A stretch of DNA of 64,000 nt from Alphaproteobacteria bacterium (GTDB taxonomy: Bacteria > Pseudomonadota > Alphaproteobacteria > DSM-16000 > Inquilinaceae). The number at the start of each line of letters is the position of its first letter. Within the stretch, counting starts at the first letter, position 1. The stretch covers positions 124,001 through 188,000 of the forward strand of contig JANQIX010000049.1 of NCBI GenBank assembly GCA_028281925.1. The letters are read 5' to 3'. Of the stretch, positions 9,944 to 28,112 are shown piece by piece. The translations under genes were made by a program, and so were the position numbers. A model generated the notes under the pieces. It ran no database searches and was not told where the DNA came from. It was given only the letters and a program-made list of their open reading frames with translations.

Positions 9944-11338
9944 TCAGAAGTGGATGGCGCGTCCGTAGGCGTCAAGGACGCTCTCGTGCATCATTTCCGA
10001 CAGCGTGGGATGCGGGAAGATGGTGTGCATCAGCTCCGCCTCCGTCGTCTCCAGCGACCGGGCGATGCCGTAGCCCTGGATCAGCTCCGTTACCTCCGCC
10101 CCGATCATATGGGCGCCCAGGAGTTCGCCCGTCTTGGCGTCGAACACCGTCTTGACCATGCCGTCCGGCTCGCCGAGCGCTATGGCCTTGCCGTTGCCGA
10201 TATTGGGGAATTTGCCGACCCGCACCTCGTGCCCCAGCTCCTTCGCCCTGGCTTCGGTCAAGCCGACGCTCGCGACCTGGGGCATGCAATAGGTGCACCC
10301 GGGGACGTTGCTCGTATCCAGCGGATGGACGTCGGGCAGGCCCGCGAGCCGCTCCACGCAGATGACGCCTTCGTGGCTTGCCTTGTGCGCCAGCCAGGGC
10401 GGGCCGACCACGTCGCCGATGGCATAGACGCCGGACTCCGCCGTCGCCAGCCATTCGTTGACCACGATATGCCCCCGGTCGACCTGAACCTTGGTCGTCT
10501 CGAGGCCGATATCTTCAGTATTGCCGACGATGCCGATTGCCAGAATGACCCGGTCGACCGTCAGCTCCGTCTTCTTGCCGTCGGCCCCTGCGATCGTCGC
10601 CTTCACGTTGGTGGCTGAGGTCTGCAGCCCTTCCACCTTCGCGCCGGTATGGATCTTCATGCCCTGCTTTTCGAAGGCCTTGCGGGCAAAGGCTGAGATG
10701 TCTTCATCCTCCACGGGAAGCACGCGGTCGAGGATCTCCACGACCGTCACCTCGGCCCCCATGTTGCGGTAGAAGCTGGCGAATTCGATGCCGATGGCGC
10801 CGGATCCGACGACCAGCAGCGACTTCGGCATGGCCTCGGGAACCATGGCTTCCTTGTAGGTCCAGATCAGCTTCCCATCCGGTTCCAGCCCAGGCAGAGA
10901 CCGCGCCCGCGCCCCGGTGGCGATGATGATGTGCTTGGCCGACAGCGTCTGACCGCCCGGCGACACGTCGACCCGTCCAGCGCCATTGAGGCGTCCATGG
11001 CCGTCGATCACCGTGACCTTGTTCTTCTTCAACAGGTGCTTCACGCCGGCGGAAAGCTGGCCGGCCACGGCACGCGACCGCTTTATGACCTTGCCGAAAT
11101 CGAAGCTGATGTCCTTGGCGGAAAAGCCGAACTGATCGAGGTTGTGAAGCAGGTGGCTGATTTCCGAAGACCGCAGCAGCGCCTTGGTCGGGATACAGCC
11201 CCAGTTGAGACAGATCCCGCCCAGATGCTCGCGTTCGACCACGGCGGTTTTCATGCCGAGCTGGGCAGCGCGGATGGCGGCCACATAGCCGCCCGGTCCG
11301 GAGCCCACGACGATCAGGTCGAAGCTGGTCTCGGCCAT
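9944..11338 (-). CDS. lpdA: Dihydrolipoyl dehydrogenase (E3)
   Basis: Flavoprotein that reoxidises dihydrolipoyl groups of the 2-oxoacid dehydrogenase complexes, reducing NAD+. The 464-residue protein has the FAD-binding GSGPGGYVAAI, the redox disulphide C43/C48 in GICLNWGCIPTK, the NAD-binding VVGSGAIGIEFASF and the C-terminal HPTLSE with the active-site base. The ATG at 11338 with AAGGAA 7 bases upstream is preferred over the GTG one codon before. It is the last of the pdhA-pdhB-pdhC-lpdA series and is followed by lipA. Confidence 0.97.
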   Translation of the reverse strand: MAETSFDLIVVGSGPGGYVAAIRAAQLGMKTAVVEREHLGGICLNWGCIPTKALLRSSEISHLLHNLDQFGFSAKDISFDFGKVIKRSRAVAGQLSAGVKHLLKKNKVTVIDGHGRLNGAGRVDVSPGGQTLSAKHIIIATGARARSLPGLEPDGKLIWTYKEAMVPEAMPKSLLVVGSGAIGIEFASFYRNMGAEVTVVEILDRVLPVEDEDISAFARKAFEKQGMKIHTGAKVEGLQTSATNVKATIAGADGKKTELTVDRVILAIGIVGNTEDIGLETTKVQVDRGHIVVNEWLATAESGVYAIGDVVGPPWLAHKASHEGVICVERLAGLPDVHPLDTSNVPGCTYCMPQVASVGLTEARAKELGHEVRVGKFPNIGNGKAIALGEPDGMVKTVFDAKTGELLGAHMIGAEVTELIQGYGIARSLETTEAELMHTIFPHPTLSEMMHESVLDAYGRAIHF

Positions 11339-21290: not shown

Positions 21291-23222
21291 ATGCTTCAGG
21301 CCATTCGCGGCAGGGCCGCATCCTGGGTCGTTAAGATCCTGTTCTTCTTCCTGATCCTCAGCTTCGCCGTCTGGGGCATCGGCGACATCTTCCGCGATGC
21401 CGGCCCCGACAGCACGGTAGCCGAGGTGGGTGAGATCGAGATCGACGCCCGCAGTTTTGATCGCAGCGTCCGCCAACAGGTCGACCGGTTCCGTGGTCTC
21501 TACGGGCCAGATTTCGACCTGCGCATTGCTCTGGAGCTGGGATTGCACCGCGAGGTGCTGAATCAGCTGATCCGCGATGCCCTGTTCGCCCAGGCCAGCG
21601 GTCGTCTTGGCCTGCAGCCCAGCGCCGACCTGATCGCCGAAGGGATCAGGCGGGACACGCTGTTCGCCGAACCCGGAACGGGCCAGTTCGACCGCATGCG
21701 CTTCGAACAGTTCCTGTTCTCCGTGGGGATGACGGAGACCGACTACGTGGCCGCGCGAGCGCAAGAGCTGACCCGCGGCCAGCTGGCCGCGGTGGTCGCC
21801 GTGGGTGCAGCACCGCCGCAGGCCCTGACCGATGCGCTCTACCGCTATCGGTACGAGACCCGCACCGCCGACGTCCTGATCCTGCGCAATGACGACATCA
21901 CCGATGTGCCGGAGCCCACGGAAGACGAGCTTGCCGCCTTTCACGACGAGAATGCGGCCCGCTTTACCGCGCCCGAATACCGTGAACTGACGCTGGTGAC
22001 CCTCACGCCGGATGACCTGGCAGAAGAGATCAGCATTTCCGAGGCTGAGCTGCTCGACGAATACGATGCGCGCATCGGATTCTACGAACAGCCGGAAAAG
22101 CGGACGTTCAACCAGATCATCATCGAGGACGCAGAGATCGCGCAGGCCGTCGCGTCGGCTGCGCGCGAGACGGATGGGGGGTTGGCGCCTGCCGCCTCCG
22201 CGGCCGGCATCGAGGATGACGTCCTGCCGCTGGAGGATACCGAGCAGGATGACATGCCGGTGGCCGAATTGGCCGATGCCGGCTTCGCCTTGCCGCTGGG
22301 GGGCATCAGCGATCCGGTGCAAACGCCCTTCGGCTGGCACATTCTTGAGCTGATGCGCATCGAGGAAGCCGGTGTGGTTCCCTTTGAGGATGTGCGGGAC
22401 GACATCGAGCAGGCATTGCAGTATGACCGGGCTATCGACGGCCTGTTCGAAATGGGCAACACCTTCGATGACGCTCTCGCCGGCGGCGCCACTCTGGAAG
22501 AAGCCGCCGACCTGGTCGGCCTCGAGACCCAGGCGGTGCCGGCGGTCAGCCGCTCCGGCGCTGCTATGGATGACGGTACCCTGCCCGAACTGGATATCCT
22601 GAACGAGGTCCTTGAGGAGGCCTTCGCCCTCGACCCCGCCGACGATGACCCCACAAGCCGTCTGATCGAAACCGATGACGGCGGCTATTTCATCGTCCGC
22701 GTAGATGGAGTGATCGAGCCGGCCCTGAGACCGCTTGAGACGGTCCGCGACGACGTCGCGGAAGCCTGGGCGGAGAACCAACGGGAGGTCGCGACGTTGG
22801 CGCTGGCGGAGAGTGCCGCGGAACGGCTAGACGCAGGAGAAGCAATCGCGGACGTCGCCGAAGCGATCGGCGCCGAGGTCGACGAGACGCCGGAGCTGCT
22901 GCGCGACGGAAGCGACCGCGGCGACCTGCCGTCCACGGTGGTCGCCGGTCTGTTCCAAGAGGACGAAGGCGGCGTGGTCGTTGCTGCCACGGCAGACGGT
23001 CAGGTCGTGGCCCGCCTTGCGTCCATCACTGGCGCGAACGCAGGCAGCGATGCGCAGCGGCAGGAGTCGCTGGCTGAGGAGGCCGCAGAACAGATGGCCG
23101 GGGACCTGATCCTGCAATTCACCGAAGCCCTGCACGGCACTTTCGACGTGGAGATCCACGAACAGGCCATCGAGCGTCTCTATGCACCGGGCGGCGACCA
23201 ACCCTACTCACCGGGAATGTGA
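21291..23222 (+). CDS. ppiD: PpiD-like SurA N-domain/peptidylprolyl isomerase
   Basis: Membrane-anchored periplasmic chaperone expected to help exported proteins fold near the Sec translocon. The 643-residue protein has a single N-terminal anchor (WVVKILFFFLILSFAVWGIGDIF), a SurA-like helical domain with a VLNQLIRDALFAQ segment, and parvulin-type rotamase elements in the middle (GGISDPVQTPFGWHILEL). The protein is markedly acidic. In Rhodospirillales-type genomes this gene commonly precedes trpE. Activity as an isomerase is not guaranteed, since many PpiD proteins are inactive. Confidence 0.88.
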   Translation: MLQAIRGRAASWVVKILFFFLILSFAVWGIGDIFRDAGPDSTVAEVGEIEIDARSFDRSVRQQVDRFRGLYGPDFDLRIALELGLHREVLNQLIRDALFAQASGRLGLQPSADLIAEGIRRDTLFAEPGTGQFDRMRFEQFLFSVGMTETDYVAARAQELTRGQLAAVVAVGAAPPQALTDALYRYRYETRTADVLILRNDDITDVPEPTEDELAAFHDENAARFTAPEYRELTLVTLTPDDLAEEISISEAELLDEYDARIGFYEQPEKRTFNQIIIEDAEIAQAVASAARETDGGLAPAASAAGIEDDVLPLEDTEQDDMPVAELADAGFALPLGGISDPVQTPFGWHILELMRIEEAGVVPFEDVRDDIEQALQYDRAIDGLFEMGNTFDDALAGGATLEEAADLVGLETQAVPAVSRSGAAMDDGTLPELDILNEVLEEAFALDPADDDPTSRLIETDDGGYFIVRVDGVIEPALRPLETVRDDVAEAWAENQREVATLALAESAAERLDAGEAIADVAEAIGAEVDETPELLRDGSDRGDLPSTVVAGLFQEDEGGVVVAATADGQVVARLASITGANAGSDAQRQESLAEEAAEQMAGDLILQFTEALHGTFDVEIHEQAIERLYAPGGDQPYSPGM

Positions 23223-23229
23223 CCCCCAG

Positions 23230-24738
23230 ATGAAGACCACACCGGACTTTGAGGGCTTTGCCCAAACCTATCGCTCGGGCCGGCCACAGGTCGTCGCCAC
23301 GACGCTGGTCGCCGATCTGGAAACGCCGGTATCGGCGATGCTCAAGCTTGCCGACGGGCGGCCGAACAGTTTGTTGTTCGAGTCCGTCCAGGGCGGTACC
23401 GCCCGCGGGCGGTATTCGTTCATCGGCCTTAAGCCCGACCTCATCTGGCGGTGCAAGCGCCAGGCCGCCGAGATCAACCGCCGAGCGCGTGCGGATGGGG
23501 ACGCCTTCGAGCCTCAGCCGGGCCATCCCCTCACCCATCTGCGAGCCCTGATCGAGGAAAGCCGGATCGATCTGCCAGCAGGCATGCCGCCGATGGCAGC
23601 AGGTCTGTTCGGCTATCTCGGCTATGACATGGTCCGGTCGATGGAGCGCATTCCCGACGACAACCCCGACACGCTGGGGGTGCCGGATGCCGTGCTTATC
23701 CGGCCCACTGTCGTCGCCATCTTCGACGATATCGAGGACACCGTTACGATCGTGACGCCCGTCCGCCCGCGCGAGGGCGTCGACGCGGAGGCGGCGTTCG
23801 AGCAGGCGGGCGAGCGGCTGGCCGACATTGTGGCCGATTTCGAGCGCAACCATCCCTATCGGCGTGACCGCTCCAGTGTGCTTGCCCAGGTGCCTGAGCC
23901 TGCGTCGAACATGACGCAGTCTGATTTCCACGCCATGGTGGAACAGGCCAAGGAGTACATCCGCGCCGGTGACATCTTCCAGGTCGTGCCCTCGCAGCGC
24001 TTCTCCGTTCCCTTCAGATTGCCACCGTTCAGCCTCTATCGGGCGCTCAGGCGTCTCAATCCCTCCCCATTTCTTTTCTATCTGGACCTGGGGGGGTTCT
24101 CGATCGTGGGCTCAAGTCCGGAAATACTGGTTCGACTGCGGGATGATCAGGTGACGATCCGCCCGCTTGCCGGAACACGCAAACGCGGCGCCACCCGCGC
24201 TGAAGACGAAGAGCTGGCGGCGGACCTGCTGGCCGATCCGAAGGAACTGGCGGAACACCTGATGCTGCTGGACCTGGGCCGCAACGATGTAGGTCGCGTG
24301 TCGGAAATCGGGTCCGTCAAAGTCACTGAGGACTTCCAGATCGAGTACTACAGCCATGTCATGCACATCGTCTCCAACGTCATCGGCCGGATCAGCGACG
24401 GTAAGGACGCGCTGGATGCGCTGATCGGAGGCTTTCCGGCCGGAACGGTCAGCGGTGCGCCGAAGGTTCGGGCGATGGAGATCATCGATGAATTGGAGGT
24501 GTCGCGGCGCGGTGTCTACGCGGGCGCTGTCGGCTATTTCGGCGCCGGCGGAGATATGGACACCTGCATCGCGCTCAGGACCGGCGTAGTGAAGGACGGT
24601 ACGCTGTTTGTCCAGGCGGGCGGGGGCATCGTCGCCGACAGTGACCCCGAGGCGGAATACCAGGAGTCCTGCAATAAGGCCCGAGCCCTGTTCCGCGCGG
24701 CGGAGGAAGCTGTCCGGTTTGCGAGTCTAAGTGGCTAG
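23230..24738 (+). CDS. trpE: Anthranilate synthase component I
   Basis: Converts chorismate with ammonia from TrpG to anthranilate, the first step to tryptophan. From the ATG at 23230 the protein has 502 residues. It shows the feedback-site-type LLFESVQGG, the chorismate-binding signature with QVVPSQRFSVPF, GSSPEILVRL, RPLAGTRKRGAT, LDLGRNDVGRV and the end motif GGIVADSDPEAEYQES. An upstream extension to 23182 overlaps the ppiD end and is rejected. No leader peptide with tandem Trp codons fits in the 7-base gap, so classical attenuation in front of trpE is not seen. Confidence 0.96.
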   Translation: MKTTPDFEGFAQTYRSGRPQVVATTLVADLETPVSAMLKLADGRPNSLLFESVQGGTARGRYSFIGLKPDLIWRCKRQAAEINRRARADGDAFEPQPGHPLTHLRALIEESRIDLPAGMPPMAAGLFGYLGYDMVRSMERIPDDNPDTLGVPDAVLIRPTVVAIFDDIEDTVTIVTPVRPREGVDAEAAFEQAGERLADIVADFERNHPYRRDRSSVLAQVPEPASNMTQSDFHAMVEQAKEYIRAGDIFQVVPSQRFSVPFRLPPFSLYRALRRLNPSPFLFYLDLGGFSIVGSSPEILVRLRDDQVTIRPLAGTRKRGATRAEDEELAADLLADPKELAEHLMLLDLGRNDVGRVSEIGSVKVTEDFQIEYYSHVMHIVSNVIGRISDGKDALDALIGGFPAGTVSGAPKVRAMEIIDELEVSRRGVYAGAVGYFGAGGDMDTCIALRTGVVKDGTLFVQAGGGIVADSDPEAEYQESCNKARALFRAAEEAVRFASLSG

Positions 24739-24771: not shown

Positions 24772-26778
24772 TTGAATCGCCGCCGAACTGTAACGCCGCC
24801 GGGCAAGCCTCGTCCTGCTGTCTTCCTGTCCGTCGCGGCGGCTGCGCTGTTCCTGGCCATCGCCAGCGTTCTCGATCTCACGGCCGGTCCTCCCTCACAC
24901 TCCGTGGACGTTGCCTGGCAGGCGCCTGCCGCCGTCGCCGACGATGCACCGGCCGTCGCAGAGCCGGAGCAGGATGACGCTGGCGGATCCATGGCCCCGC
25001 CTAGCCCACAGGCAGCGGCCCAGCCTGCCGCAGGCACCGTGGAGTTGGGCCGAGACGCGCAAGGTGCCCATACCTCGACCTTGCGCCGCGATGAGGCCGC
25101 GTTGCCCGGTGAACCGAGTGCGGACGCTCTGCCCGCCCCCGATGACGCAGCGCCCGATGTCGAAACCGTGGCGCGCTATCCGGCGATGGAGGTCCCTGAC
25201 CGGGTCGATCCCGGAGTTCCCTTTCCGCTGCTGGTCTGGTTGAGCGAGGCGTCCGTCAACAGCGATGTGGTGGTGCAGCCGGGCCCCGAGGTTGAGTTGT
25301 CGGAAGACGGCGCCATTCGGGTTTCGCTTCCGGTGGTCGAGGGCGAGGACACCTGGGACCTGCAGGTCGTGCTCACGGCCCATGGCTTCGACATCATCTC
25401 ACCGGCGACCTGGTCGGCCGACATCGTGCTGCCCCGCAGCGGTGACTCCACCCCGGCACTATTCACGCTTATCGCCCGCGAAGGCGCCCATGGCGACGGC
25501 GAAGCCCGCATCACAGCGACGCTGTGGCATGCAGGCAGCTACCTTGCCAGCCTGACGCGATCCATCACGATCAACGGCCCGAATGACGACAAACCGGCCC
25601 GCCATGTTGCCGCATCGGCCGAACGGCGACCGGTCGCGGCCGCCGGCCGGCCGGAGCCGGATCTGGTCGTTCGCATCGACTACGATGATGCCGAGGCGAT
25701 GGGGCCCGGGCAGATCATCATCGCGTCACCGCACCTGGCCCATCGCGTTCTGGTGGGAGAGATTGATACGCCGCCGTCGGCTGTGGCCTGGATGCAGAGC
25801 CAGATCAGCGAAATAGTCTCGGCTCGGCGGGGGCGTGACCGCGGTATCGAGCGCACGGGTGTCGATGAGAGCCGGGACCCATCGAGCGAAATGACAAGCC
25901 TGCTGCTCGAAGGCTTCGGCCGCGAGGTCTACCTGCGCTATGCGCCGGAGCTGTTCCGCGAGGTGCTCTGGAATCTGCTCGACGACCCGGATGTCGACGT
26001 CAACACGATCCAGATCTATTCCAATCATCCGGCTATCCCGTGGGAGCTGATGCGCCCCATTCGCGAGGACGGCAGCGGCGATATCGGCTATCTCGGCTCG
26101 CGGTTCATGGTTGCCCGCTGGCATGTGGGCGACGGGCGGAACCTGCTGGACCGCCCGAAGGCGGAGCTGGAGCTGGAGCAGGTGGTGGCCATTGCCCCGG
26201 ACTATCCGGGGGCCGACGCCTTGCCGCATCAGACGGTCGAGCTGTCGACTATTTCGCAGGTGCCCGGCTTCCGAAGGGTTCCTGCCCGACTCGATGCCGT
26301 CCACGCGCTGATGCGTACGCCCCCTTCGGGCATCATTCACTTTGCCGGTCACGGCGTGGTCGAGGGCGAAGCGGCGGGTCGCCGGTTCTCCATTCAGCTG
26401 GAGGATGAAAGGCTGCACGTGCTGGCTTGGCGGGCCATGGCGACGGGCAGCCCACAGCTCGGCGCTTTCTACTTCTTCAACGCCTGCGACATCGGCCAGG
26501 CGGAGCAGATCGGCAACGCGGTCGACGGCTGGGGGCCTGCCGTGCTGGATGCGGGCGCTGGCGGCTTCATCGGCGGGCTATGGCCGGTCTTCGACGATGC
26601 CGCCGCCGACTTCGCGGCCCGGTTCTATACAGAGCTCTCCCGCGACCTGAGCGGCGAAGGCGCGCAGGTGGCCGACGTGCTGCGCCGGGTCCGCCAAGCC
26701 TTTCTGGAAACCGGCGATCCGACCTATCTCAGCTATGTCTATTATGGCGACGTCAATCTACGGCTGACCTCGCCGTAG
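24772..26778 (+). CDS. Membrane-anchored CHAT-domain (caspase-like) protein
   Basis: A 668-residue protein with no obvious partner. A basic N-terminus (NRRRTVTPPGKPRP) is followed by one membrane span (about 16-37), an Ala/Pro/Asp-rich linker to about 130, a beta-rich Ig-like region (about 133-265), a second linker, and a C-terminal CHAT domain (about 375-668). The CHAT part has IPWELMRPI, the catalytic-type His527 in HFAGHG and Cys572 in FFNACDIG, and ends with AAADFAARFY. By the positive-inside rule the CHAT domain would face the periplasm. The only in-frame start near the N-terminus is TTG at 24772. It lies between trpE and trpG. CHAT proteins act as proteases or scaffolds elsewhere; the substrate here is unknown. 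Confidence 0.78.
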   Translation: MNRRRTVTPPGKPRPAVFLSVAAAALFLAIASVLDLTAGPPSHSVDVAWQAPAAVADDAPAVAEPEQDDAGGSMAPPSPQAAAQPAAGTVELGRDAQGAHTSTLRRDEAALPGEPSADALPAPDDAAPDVETVARYPAMEVPDRVDPGVPFPLLVWLSEASVNSDVVVQPGPEVELSEDGAIRVSLPVVEGEDTWDLQVVLTAHGFDIISPATWSADIVLPRSGDSTPALFTLIAREGAHGDGEARITATLWHAGSYLASLTRSITINGPNDDKPARHVAASAERRPVAAAGRPEPDLVVRIDYDDAEAMGPGQIIIASPHLAHRVLVGEIDTPPSAVAWMQSQISEIVSARRGRDRGIERTGVDESRDPSSEMTSLLLEGFGREVYLRYAPELFREVLWNLLDDPDVDVNTIQIYSNHPAIPWELMRPIREDGSGDIGYLGSRFMVARWHVGDGRNLLDRPKAELELEQVVAIAPDYPGADALPHQTVELSTISQVPGFRRVPARLDAVHALMRTPPSGIIHFAGHGVVEGEAAGRRFSIQLEDERLHVLAWRAMATGSPQLGAFYFFNACDIGQAEQIGNAVDGWGPAVLDAGAGGFIGGLWPVFDDAAADFAARFYTELSRDLSGEGAQVADVLRRVRQAFLETGDPTYLSYVYYGDVNLRLTSP

Positions 26779-26782
26779 TCGC

Positions 26783-27886
26783 TTAGGCAGGGGACGGCGA
26801 TAGGCCGACAGCCACCGGTGCATCACCCTGCGCTTCCGGCGCCTGCCACGCGGCTCCGACGATGGCGCTGACCGGCACCGCAAGGAAGCCGCGCTCCACC
26901 AGCCGCGGTAGCCATTCTGCCAACGCGTCCAAGGTGGCGTCGTTGGGGTGGCCGATGGCGATCACCGCCCCCCGCCGTTCAGCCAGTTGTTCGGTCACCG
27001 AGAGGGCACGCCGCACCGCGTCCGGTGCCGGGTCATGGTCCAAGAACACGTCGTTTCTGGCGAAGGGAAGACCGAGCTCGGCTGCCAACTCCGGTGCGAC
27101 ACTCTGCACCGTCGTGCGACTGTCCAGGAACAGCAGGCCCCGATCCGTCAGCGTCTGCAGGACGGGCGTCATTACCGAGCGCGTGCCGGTGAACAGGCTG
27201 CCCATGTGGTTGTTGACCCCGACATATTCGTCGAACCGGCCGAGGGCCCATTGCAGGCGACGATCGATCTCATCGGGTGGCAGGTCGACCAAGAGCGCAT
27301 TCGGCCCCGGATCATGGGCCGCGCTGATCGGCTGCATCGGAATATGCAGCAAGAGTTCGTGGCCTGCCGCCCTCGCCTCGACGGTCAGCGGATCCAACAT
27401 CTCAGAATAGGGCAGGAACGACAGCGTCACCGGTGGCGGCAGGGCGATGGCTTTGCGCGTCAATGTCGGGTTCAGTCCCAGGTCGTCGATGACGATCGCG
27501 ATCATCGGTCGGCCCGCCGGATCCGCCGTCTCGACTGCAAAGCGCTGCCATGCAGGACGATCGTAGTCGTCGGCCTGCCACTCCGGCGGCTCAACCGGCT
27601 CAACCACCGTGTGTCGTGTGACAGTCGCCGGTTGCGGCGCGGGTCCGGGCGCAGCCGGCGACCCGATGGGCGGTCTCGCCGGAAGGTCGGCGCTAACCGT
27701 CACGCGGGCCGGTTCGTGGCCCGTGAACACGGCAACGACCCGGTCGATGCCCGCCTCCCCCACCAACAGGCCGGCGGCAAAGAACACGCCCGCCGTCATC
27801 AGCCAGATGGCCACGACCAGCAGGCGGCCGAAGAGCCCGCCTCCGGGCGGCCGGCCTGCGGTCTGGCGAAATCGCTCCCGCGTCAT
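26783..27886 (-). CDS. Divergent polysaccharide deacetylase family protein (YibQ-like)
   Basis: A predicted periplasmic, membrane-anchored member of the divergent polysaccharide deacetylase family. From the ATG at 27886 (AAGG upstream) it has 367 residues; a TTG at 27904 is an alternative. After a basic N-terminus comes one membrane span (LLVVAIWLMTAGVFFAAGLL), a Pro-rich linker, then the NodB-like barrel with IAIVIDDLGLN, VTLSFLPYS, HELLLHIPMQP, VGVNNHMGS, FLDSRTT and IGHPNDATL. The family's biological role is poorly known; some homologues sit beside envelope proteases. It converges on the CHAT gene with only 4 bases between the stops. Confidence 0.88.
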   Translation of the reverse strand: MTRERFRQTAGRPPGGGLFGRLLVVAIWLMTAGVFFAAGLLVGEAGIDRVVAVFTGHEPARVTVSADLPARPPIGSPAAPGPAPQPATVTRHTVVEPVEPPEWQADDYDRPAWQRFAVETADPAGRPMIAIVIDDLGLNPTLTRKAIALPPPVTLSFLPYSEMLDPLTVEARAAGHELLLHIPMQPISAAHDPGPNALLVDLPPDEIDRRLQWALGRFDEYVGVNNHMGSLFTGTRSVMTPVLQTLTDRGLLFLDSRTTVQSVAPELAAELGLPFARNDVFLDHDPAPDAVRRALSVTEQLAERRGAVIAIGHPNDATLDALAEWLPRLVERGFLAVPVSAIVGAAWQAPEAQGDAPVAVGLSPSPA

Positions 27887-28112
27887 GGTGGATCGCCTTG
27901 ACAAGGTCGCAAGCCTATCCTTCCGTTGGATGCCTGGCGCGGATGGTCTGGAAAGCTCGCCGCGTTCGCAAGCATTGAATAGTTAACAAACGCCGCACCA
28001 TCCCGCACCCAGACCACATTGACGACAGGCGCGGATTGCTGGCAATCGTTCGACAGCGGCGGTAGCCTCGACCCGCCACCACCCTGTCACAACCGGGCCG
28101 TTAGGTCGCAAC

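Follow-up and report, generated by a model that had tools for sequence, protein, structure and literature searches.

A predicted membrane-anchored, exported CHAT-domain protease encoded beside trpE in an alphaproteobacterial genome

We analyzed a 64,000-nt stretch of an alphaproteobacterial contig (the whole of it is referred to as the window) with regard to one gene on the forward strand, which encodes a CHAT-domain protein of 668 aa and lies between trpE and a polysaccharide deacetylase gene. The features of this locus and of the encoded protein are as follows:

23182..24738, + strand: trpE (Pfam), 33 bp upstream of the CHAT gene on the same strand; not counted in the function
24772..26778, + strand: gene of the exported Ig/MG-CHAT protein, 668 aa, TTG start
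24817..24873, + strand: hydrophobic span, residues 16-34, a predicted signal anchor (or an uncleaved or cleavable signal peptide), KD 2.57, following a basic N-terminus
24874..25164, + strand: Pro/Ala-rich linker, residues 35-131, poorly conserved (dN/dS 0.35 for residues 1-131)
25165..25578, + strand: predicted beta-sandwich, residues 132-269, Ig/macroglobulin-like (AlphaFold, Foldseek, dN/dS 0.07)
25663..26016, + strand: N-terminal half of the separase/CHAT unit in the model, about residues 298-415, without catalytic residues
26179..26775, + strand: C-terminal catalytic half, about residues 470-668 (PF12770, 9.7e-19; VIA Z 22-23)
26350..26352, + strand: predicted catalytic His527 (HFAGHG), invariant in the alignment
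26485..26487, + strand: predicted catalytic Cys572 (NACDIG), invariant in the alignment and, by cysteine count, the sole cysteine of the protein
26783..27904, - strand: divergent polysaccharide deacetylase (PF04748, 2.7e-77), convergent with the CHAT gene, with trpG beyond

The sequence-only reading of this locus had proposed that a lineage-specific insertion of the CHAT gene splits a trpE-trpG linkage. The gene is indeed lineage-specific, but it was the deacetylase that split the pair first. In two genomes without a CHAT gene (G004 and G008) we observed trpE, the convergent deacetylase, trpG, trpD, trpC, moaC and moeA in this order, and in six others (G003, G006, G012, G013, G014 and G015) trpE adjoins trpG and no deacetylase is present. 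From the gene order in G004 and G008 it follows that the deacetylase preceded the CHAT gene, and that the latter either entered or has persisted in the window's genus alone. The deacetylase is an unlikely partner because it already separates the two trp genes in relatives that have no CHAT gene, and its adjacency says little. A function linked to trpE was likewise rejected, since relatives keep the trp genes without the CHAT gene. Directly next to the window gene, where trpE and the deacetylase lie, we found no ECF sigma factor gene, no CHASE2 gene (the CHASE2 genes of this genome are on other contigs) and nothing of toxin, phage or mobile-element type; no Cas7-11 (gRAMP) gene is present among the flanks trpE, deacetylase and trpG. 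PADLOC (library of 2023, with newer systems outside its range) gave no match for the protein. The gene is solitary, and no conserved partner is seen.

The TTG start is preceded by no clear Shine-Dalgarno sequence, which could mean that the N-terminus was mis-called and that the protein is cytoplasmic. We consider this very improbable: the only close orthologue found, in a sister genome of the same genus (92% identical, same neighbours), begins at the same codon with GTG, and an N-terminal export signal occurs in nearly all full-length homologues. For the comparison of the window and sister genes (Nei-Gojobori) we obtained a dN/dS of 0.10 overall, with 0.35 for residues 1-131, 0.07 for residues 132-280, 0.025 for residues 281-420 and 0.033 for residues 421-668. 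The folded part is therefore under strong purifying selection, and because its GC3 equals that of the neighbours including trpE, the gene looks ameliorated rather than freshly acquired.

Next, we considered the domain layout. Pfam CHAT (PF12770) matches residues 422-647 with 68.3 bits (cut-off 24), while Peptidase_C25 passes marginally (23.9 against a cut-off of 23). No NCBIfam match was found, Pfam detected no TPR (the beta-sandwich occupies the N-terminal side instead), and none of the solved chains was matched at the level of sequence, including in a family-alignment profile search of PDB sequences. The AlphaFold model (20 sequences, pLDDT 79, pTM 0.80) contains a separase-like double caspase fold. 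VIA-align gave Z values of 22-23 for separase, 20-22.7 for Csx29/Craspase, 19.0 for gingipain R, 17.1 for SAVED-CHAT and 16 for DdvA; model residues 156-537 are the stretch that matches separase, Csx29 and gingipain. When the beta-sandwich (residues 132-269) was modelled alone, pLDDT was 92.5, and its best Foldseek matches were MG domains of CD109 and complement C3 together with related sandwiches, at a moderate TMq of 0.51-0.59 and E about 1e-4. The protein ends with the CHAT unit, so that no IgSF domain follows the catalytic unit and the sandwich is N-terminal. Pfam, hydropathy, AlphaFold and the alignment thus confirm the combination of a signal-anchor span, a beta-rich Ig-like region and a CHAT domain with His527 and Cys572 that had been proposed from the letters.

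In a survey of homologues, both His527 and Cys572 were invariant in all ten aligned relatives, at about 30% identity. Homologues of the Mesorhizobium type carry an extra C14 domain, in which His is kept in most copies and Asn, Asp or Pro replaces Cys, and this domain reads as a putative pseudo-caspase. The CHAT dyad is invariant while the extra caspase domain has lost its Cys, which argues that the dyad is selectively kept. Pseudo-caspases are widespread in Rhizobiales (PMC6426788). That the Mesorhizobium homologues contain one could suggest that the window protein, too, uses its CHAT fold for binding or as a scaffold and not for proteolysis. We regard this as decidedly improbable, as no alignable relative departs from His or Cys at these positions, and the retention of a single cysteine by an exported protein points to a functional thiol. 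In the Mesorhizobium homologues L008-L017 the putative pseudo-caspase and the intact CHAT domain are joined in one exported chain. One Mesorhizobium copy (L020) is frameshifted near 11290-11302, just before the catalytic Cys, which is either true or a sequencing error.

Regarding the location of the protein, residues 16-34 form its only hydrophobic span, and the N-terminal side of this span is rich in R/K (MNRRRTVTPPGKPRP). By the positive-inside rule this basic tail would place the CHAT domain outside the cytoplasm, where it is almost certainly held. The sequence-only reading had predicted the same from the basic N-terminus, and the export signals of the relatives as well as the lone catalytic Cys speak in its favour. 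Such signals, judged like that of the window protein by a hydropathy rule, are present in nearly all full-length relatives across three different N-terminal architectures; the signal of L022 is below the strict cut-off, yet visible in the sequence. The catalytic Cys is likewise the sole cysteine in L007, L016, L018 and L019. Among the ORFs listed for the window, the envelope-type PpiD and the deacetylase contain none and most others several. Of the four most similar CHATs on plasmids, the three from Agrobacterium, Rhizobium and Bradyrhizobium lack signal peptides and contain 4-6 cysteines. A signal peptide is present in the Hymenobacter plasmid relative L077, whose His and Cys are retained within altered motifs. 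Since further cysteines are found in the paralogue L081 and in several exported TPR-CHATs, cysteine depletion supports export but is not diagnostic. Taken together, the sequence comparisons give good support to a prediction of an extracytoplasmic, membrane-anchored and probably active cysteine protease.

A six-frame search of genome contigs yielded 19 loci of this family. They occur in the sister genome, in Mesorhizobium and further Rhizobiaceae/Hyphomicrobiales (identity of about 36% across roughly 535 aa), in Acidobacteriaceae (27-30%) and as fragments in MAGs; phage records contained no match to the window protein. The record of L007 (JANQQD010000398.1) is titled Anaerolineae, yet it belongs to the same genus as the window genome, the kin of which look alphaproteobacterial, so the title is probably wrong. 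Three front architectures were observed: a signal peptide with a Peptidase_C14 caspase domain in Mesorhizobium (L008, L010), a signal peptide with Sel1 repeats in Acidobacteriaceae (L021, L022), and a plain signal anchor in the window protein and L018. In the tree, where several rows have long branches, the nine exported rows form one clade (support 92/96), separate from plasmid CHATs that lack signal peptides. Among the rhizobial copies the neighbouring genes differ. In L021 and L022 the CHAT gene is followed by a gene for a CHASE2 membrane protein and then by one for a small secreted Ig/carboxypeptidase-regulatory-like protein, and the MAG to which the pieces L024 and L025 belong probably shows the same order. 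The window's own genome encodes two further CHAT proteins (L001/L081 and L002/L082) of the TPR type, the former with an apparent signal peptide; neither is close to the window protein. The plasmid CHATs L078, L079 and L080 (Agrobacterium, Rhizobium, Bradyrhizobium) belong to islands that also carry genes for TIR, metallophosphoesterase, S8 peptidase and caspase proteins.

The gene is far from ubiquitous: in whole-genome samples of the window's class a family match was found in 1 of 385 genomes (the window's own), and 3 of 297 Mesorhizobium-family genomes matched, two with full-length copies and one with the CHAT part only. This patchy distribution, together with the island genes beside the non-exported plasmid CHATs, would be consistent with an extracytoplasmic effector in conflict or defence, derived from the island CHAT systems, exported and directed against phage or competitor proteins at the envelope. 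However, PADLOC (library of 2023) gave no match, the gene stands solitary beside trpE without toxin, phage or mobile genes next to it, and its GC3 equals that of its neighbours, and we therefore judge such a role to be improbable.

CHAT proteases had been presented in the sequence-only reading as known from cytoplasmic systems. For the window's class this is not mainly the case. We found a CHAT gene at E 1e-12 in 31 of 142 genomes. Of the 20 CHATs fetched (L115-L134), which were high-scoring and taken one per genome so that the sample favours TPR-CHATs, 18 passed a signal-peptide/lipobox rule, compared to 21 of 87 control ORFs; one more (L130) failed the rule but has a signal peptide by eye. 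The sampled proteins are mostly exported TPR-CHATs, many of them with lipoboxes. Judged by these predicted signals, outside the cytoplasm is the usual site of CHAT domains in this class, which makes the window gene a rare branch with a different build within a widespread, little-studied group. In 8 of the 14 genomes having both genes, ShlB lies within 10 kb of a CHAT gene (0.18 expected, P about 8e-13), and CHASE2 is close to CHAT in 8 genomes (0.38 expected, P about 8e-10), both values assuming random gene placement and using coordinates entered by hand. The positions are:

ShlB near CHAT genes: G020:C1, G023:C88, G025:C1, G050:C57, G057:C10, G127:C284, G136:C1, G143:C9
CHASE2 beside exported CHAT genes: loci L135-L143 in genomes G019, G020, G023, G071, G075, G143, G017 and G056

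All six CHASE2 proteins scanned near exported CHATs combine CHASE2 with a class III cyclase. Several CHAT-ShlB clusters also hold a gene for a TPS-domain exoprotein, and these exoproteins are possible substrates of the clustered CHATs. The earlier statement that no sensor gene is adjacent is thus true at the window but not for its relatives, as CHASE2 lies beside the Acidobacteriaceae copies, and CHASE2-cyclases and TPS translocators lie beside exported TPR-CHATs. These associations suggest a type of signal and substrate, although none of the genes in question stands beside the window copy. The window genome (G000) itself has nine strong TPS-domain matches in large open frames (1299-3945 aa) and two weak fragments, on contigs C107, C58, C48, C54, C42, C81, C50 and C114, and one ShlB match.

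A literature search, in which few subscription journals were covered, found nothing on exported CHATs as a class or on CHAT-CHASE2. It is conceivable, if rather doubtful, that exported CHATs constitute a broad, undescribed set of envelope-surveillance proteases, whose typical partners would be CHASE2 receptors and whose targets would be two-partner-secreted exoproteins or further proteins of the envelope, with the Ig/MG-CHAT family of the window as a divergent stand-alone branch that has its own recognition domain. CHAT proteases have been discussed almost only as cytoplasmic effectors. The sequence evidence suggests that most CHATs in one large bacterial class work outside the cytoplasm, near genes for receptor cyclases and for the secretion of exoproteins. 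It also points to a distinct branch, its active site intact, that is kept as a single gene under strong purifying selection. Exported CHATs may thus be a concrete place to seek caspase-like proteolysis in the bacterial envelope.

For the window protein we favour, as a reasonably probable reading, an inner-membrane-anchored, periplasm-facing CHAT cysteine endopeptidase of the separase/caspase type that is triggered by a signal and acts on envelope or surface proteins. About 15 basic residues would stay in the cytoplasm, residues 16-34 would span or cross the membrane, and the flexible linker would extend into the periplasm, where the beta-sandwich (residues 132-269) could serve as a recognition or regulatory domain. 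A signal reaching the two-lobed CHAT unit would then cause His527 and Cys572 to cleave one or a few proteins, probably of the envelope or the cell surface. The evidence for export, for the fold and for conservation of the dyad comes from sequence comparison and the model; from the solved relatives separase, Csx29 (PMC10028731) and gingipain we infer proteolysis, specificity, signal and substrate.

Compared with known systems, separase (C50) resembles the window protein in having a pseudo and an active caspase-like lobe (Z 22-23), but it is a cytosolic/nuclear eukaryotic enzyme acting on cohesin and shows no detectable sequence match. The dyad of Csx29 is H615/C658 (PMC10028731). This TPR-CHAT protein of Craspase (type III-E CRISPR) shares the two-lobed CHAT unit and the His-Cys dyad (Z up to 22.7), whereas it is cytoplasmic and RNA-guided with a TPR N-terminus, in place of which the window protein has a beta-sandwich and an export signal. 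The gingipains RgpB and Kgp (C25) are extracellular bacterial proteases related in fold (Z about 18-19, with Pfam C25 marginal), but their beta-sandwich follows the catalytic unit and that of the window protein precedes it. DdvA of M. xanthus, a structural match to the window model with Z 16, is reportedly a periplasmic TPR-CHAT and transmembrane anti-sigma factor, with its anti-sigma domain in the cytoplasm and an active site that is incomplete. This match, together with the sensing modules of the relatives (CHASE2 receptors beside the Acidobacteriaceae copies, CHASE2-cyclases beside exported TPR-CHATs), raises the alternative of a DdvA-like self-cleaving sensor, in which the periplasmic CHAT domain would cut itself or a twin on ligand binding and release or processing would be the output. 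We consider this fairly unlikely, because the window protein has only about 15 residues before the span, in contrast to the cytoplasmic anti-sigma domain of DdvA, and thus no cytoplasmic output domain, and because no sigma factor or CHASE2 gene is adjacent to it. In bacteria, metacaspase homologues outside the cell have also been predicted, and surface or fratricidal roles have been raised for them (PMC3501461). The exported TPR-CHATs of loci with CHASE2-cyclase and TPS genes share export signals with the window protein but, unlike it, have TPR repeats, are in many cases lipoprotein-like and possess conserved CHASE2-cyclase or ShlB neighbours. A periplasmic caspase-like enzyme, earlier expected to be new, is hence preceded by the exported CHATs of the class, by the extracellular gingipains and reportedly by DdvA; what the window protein adds is a rare and differently built branch.
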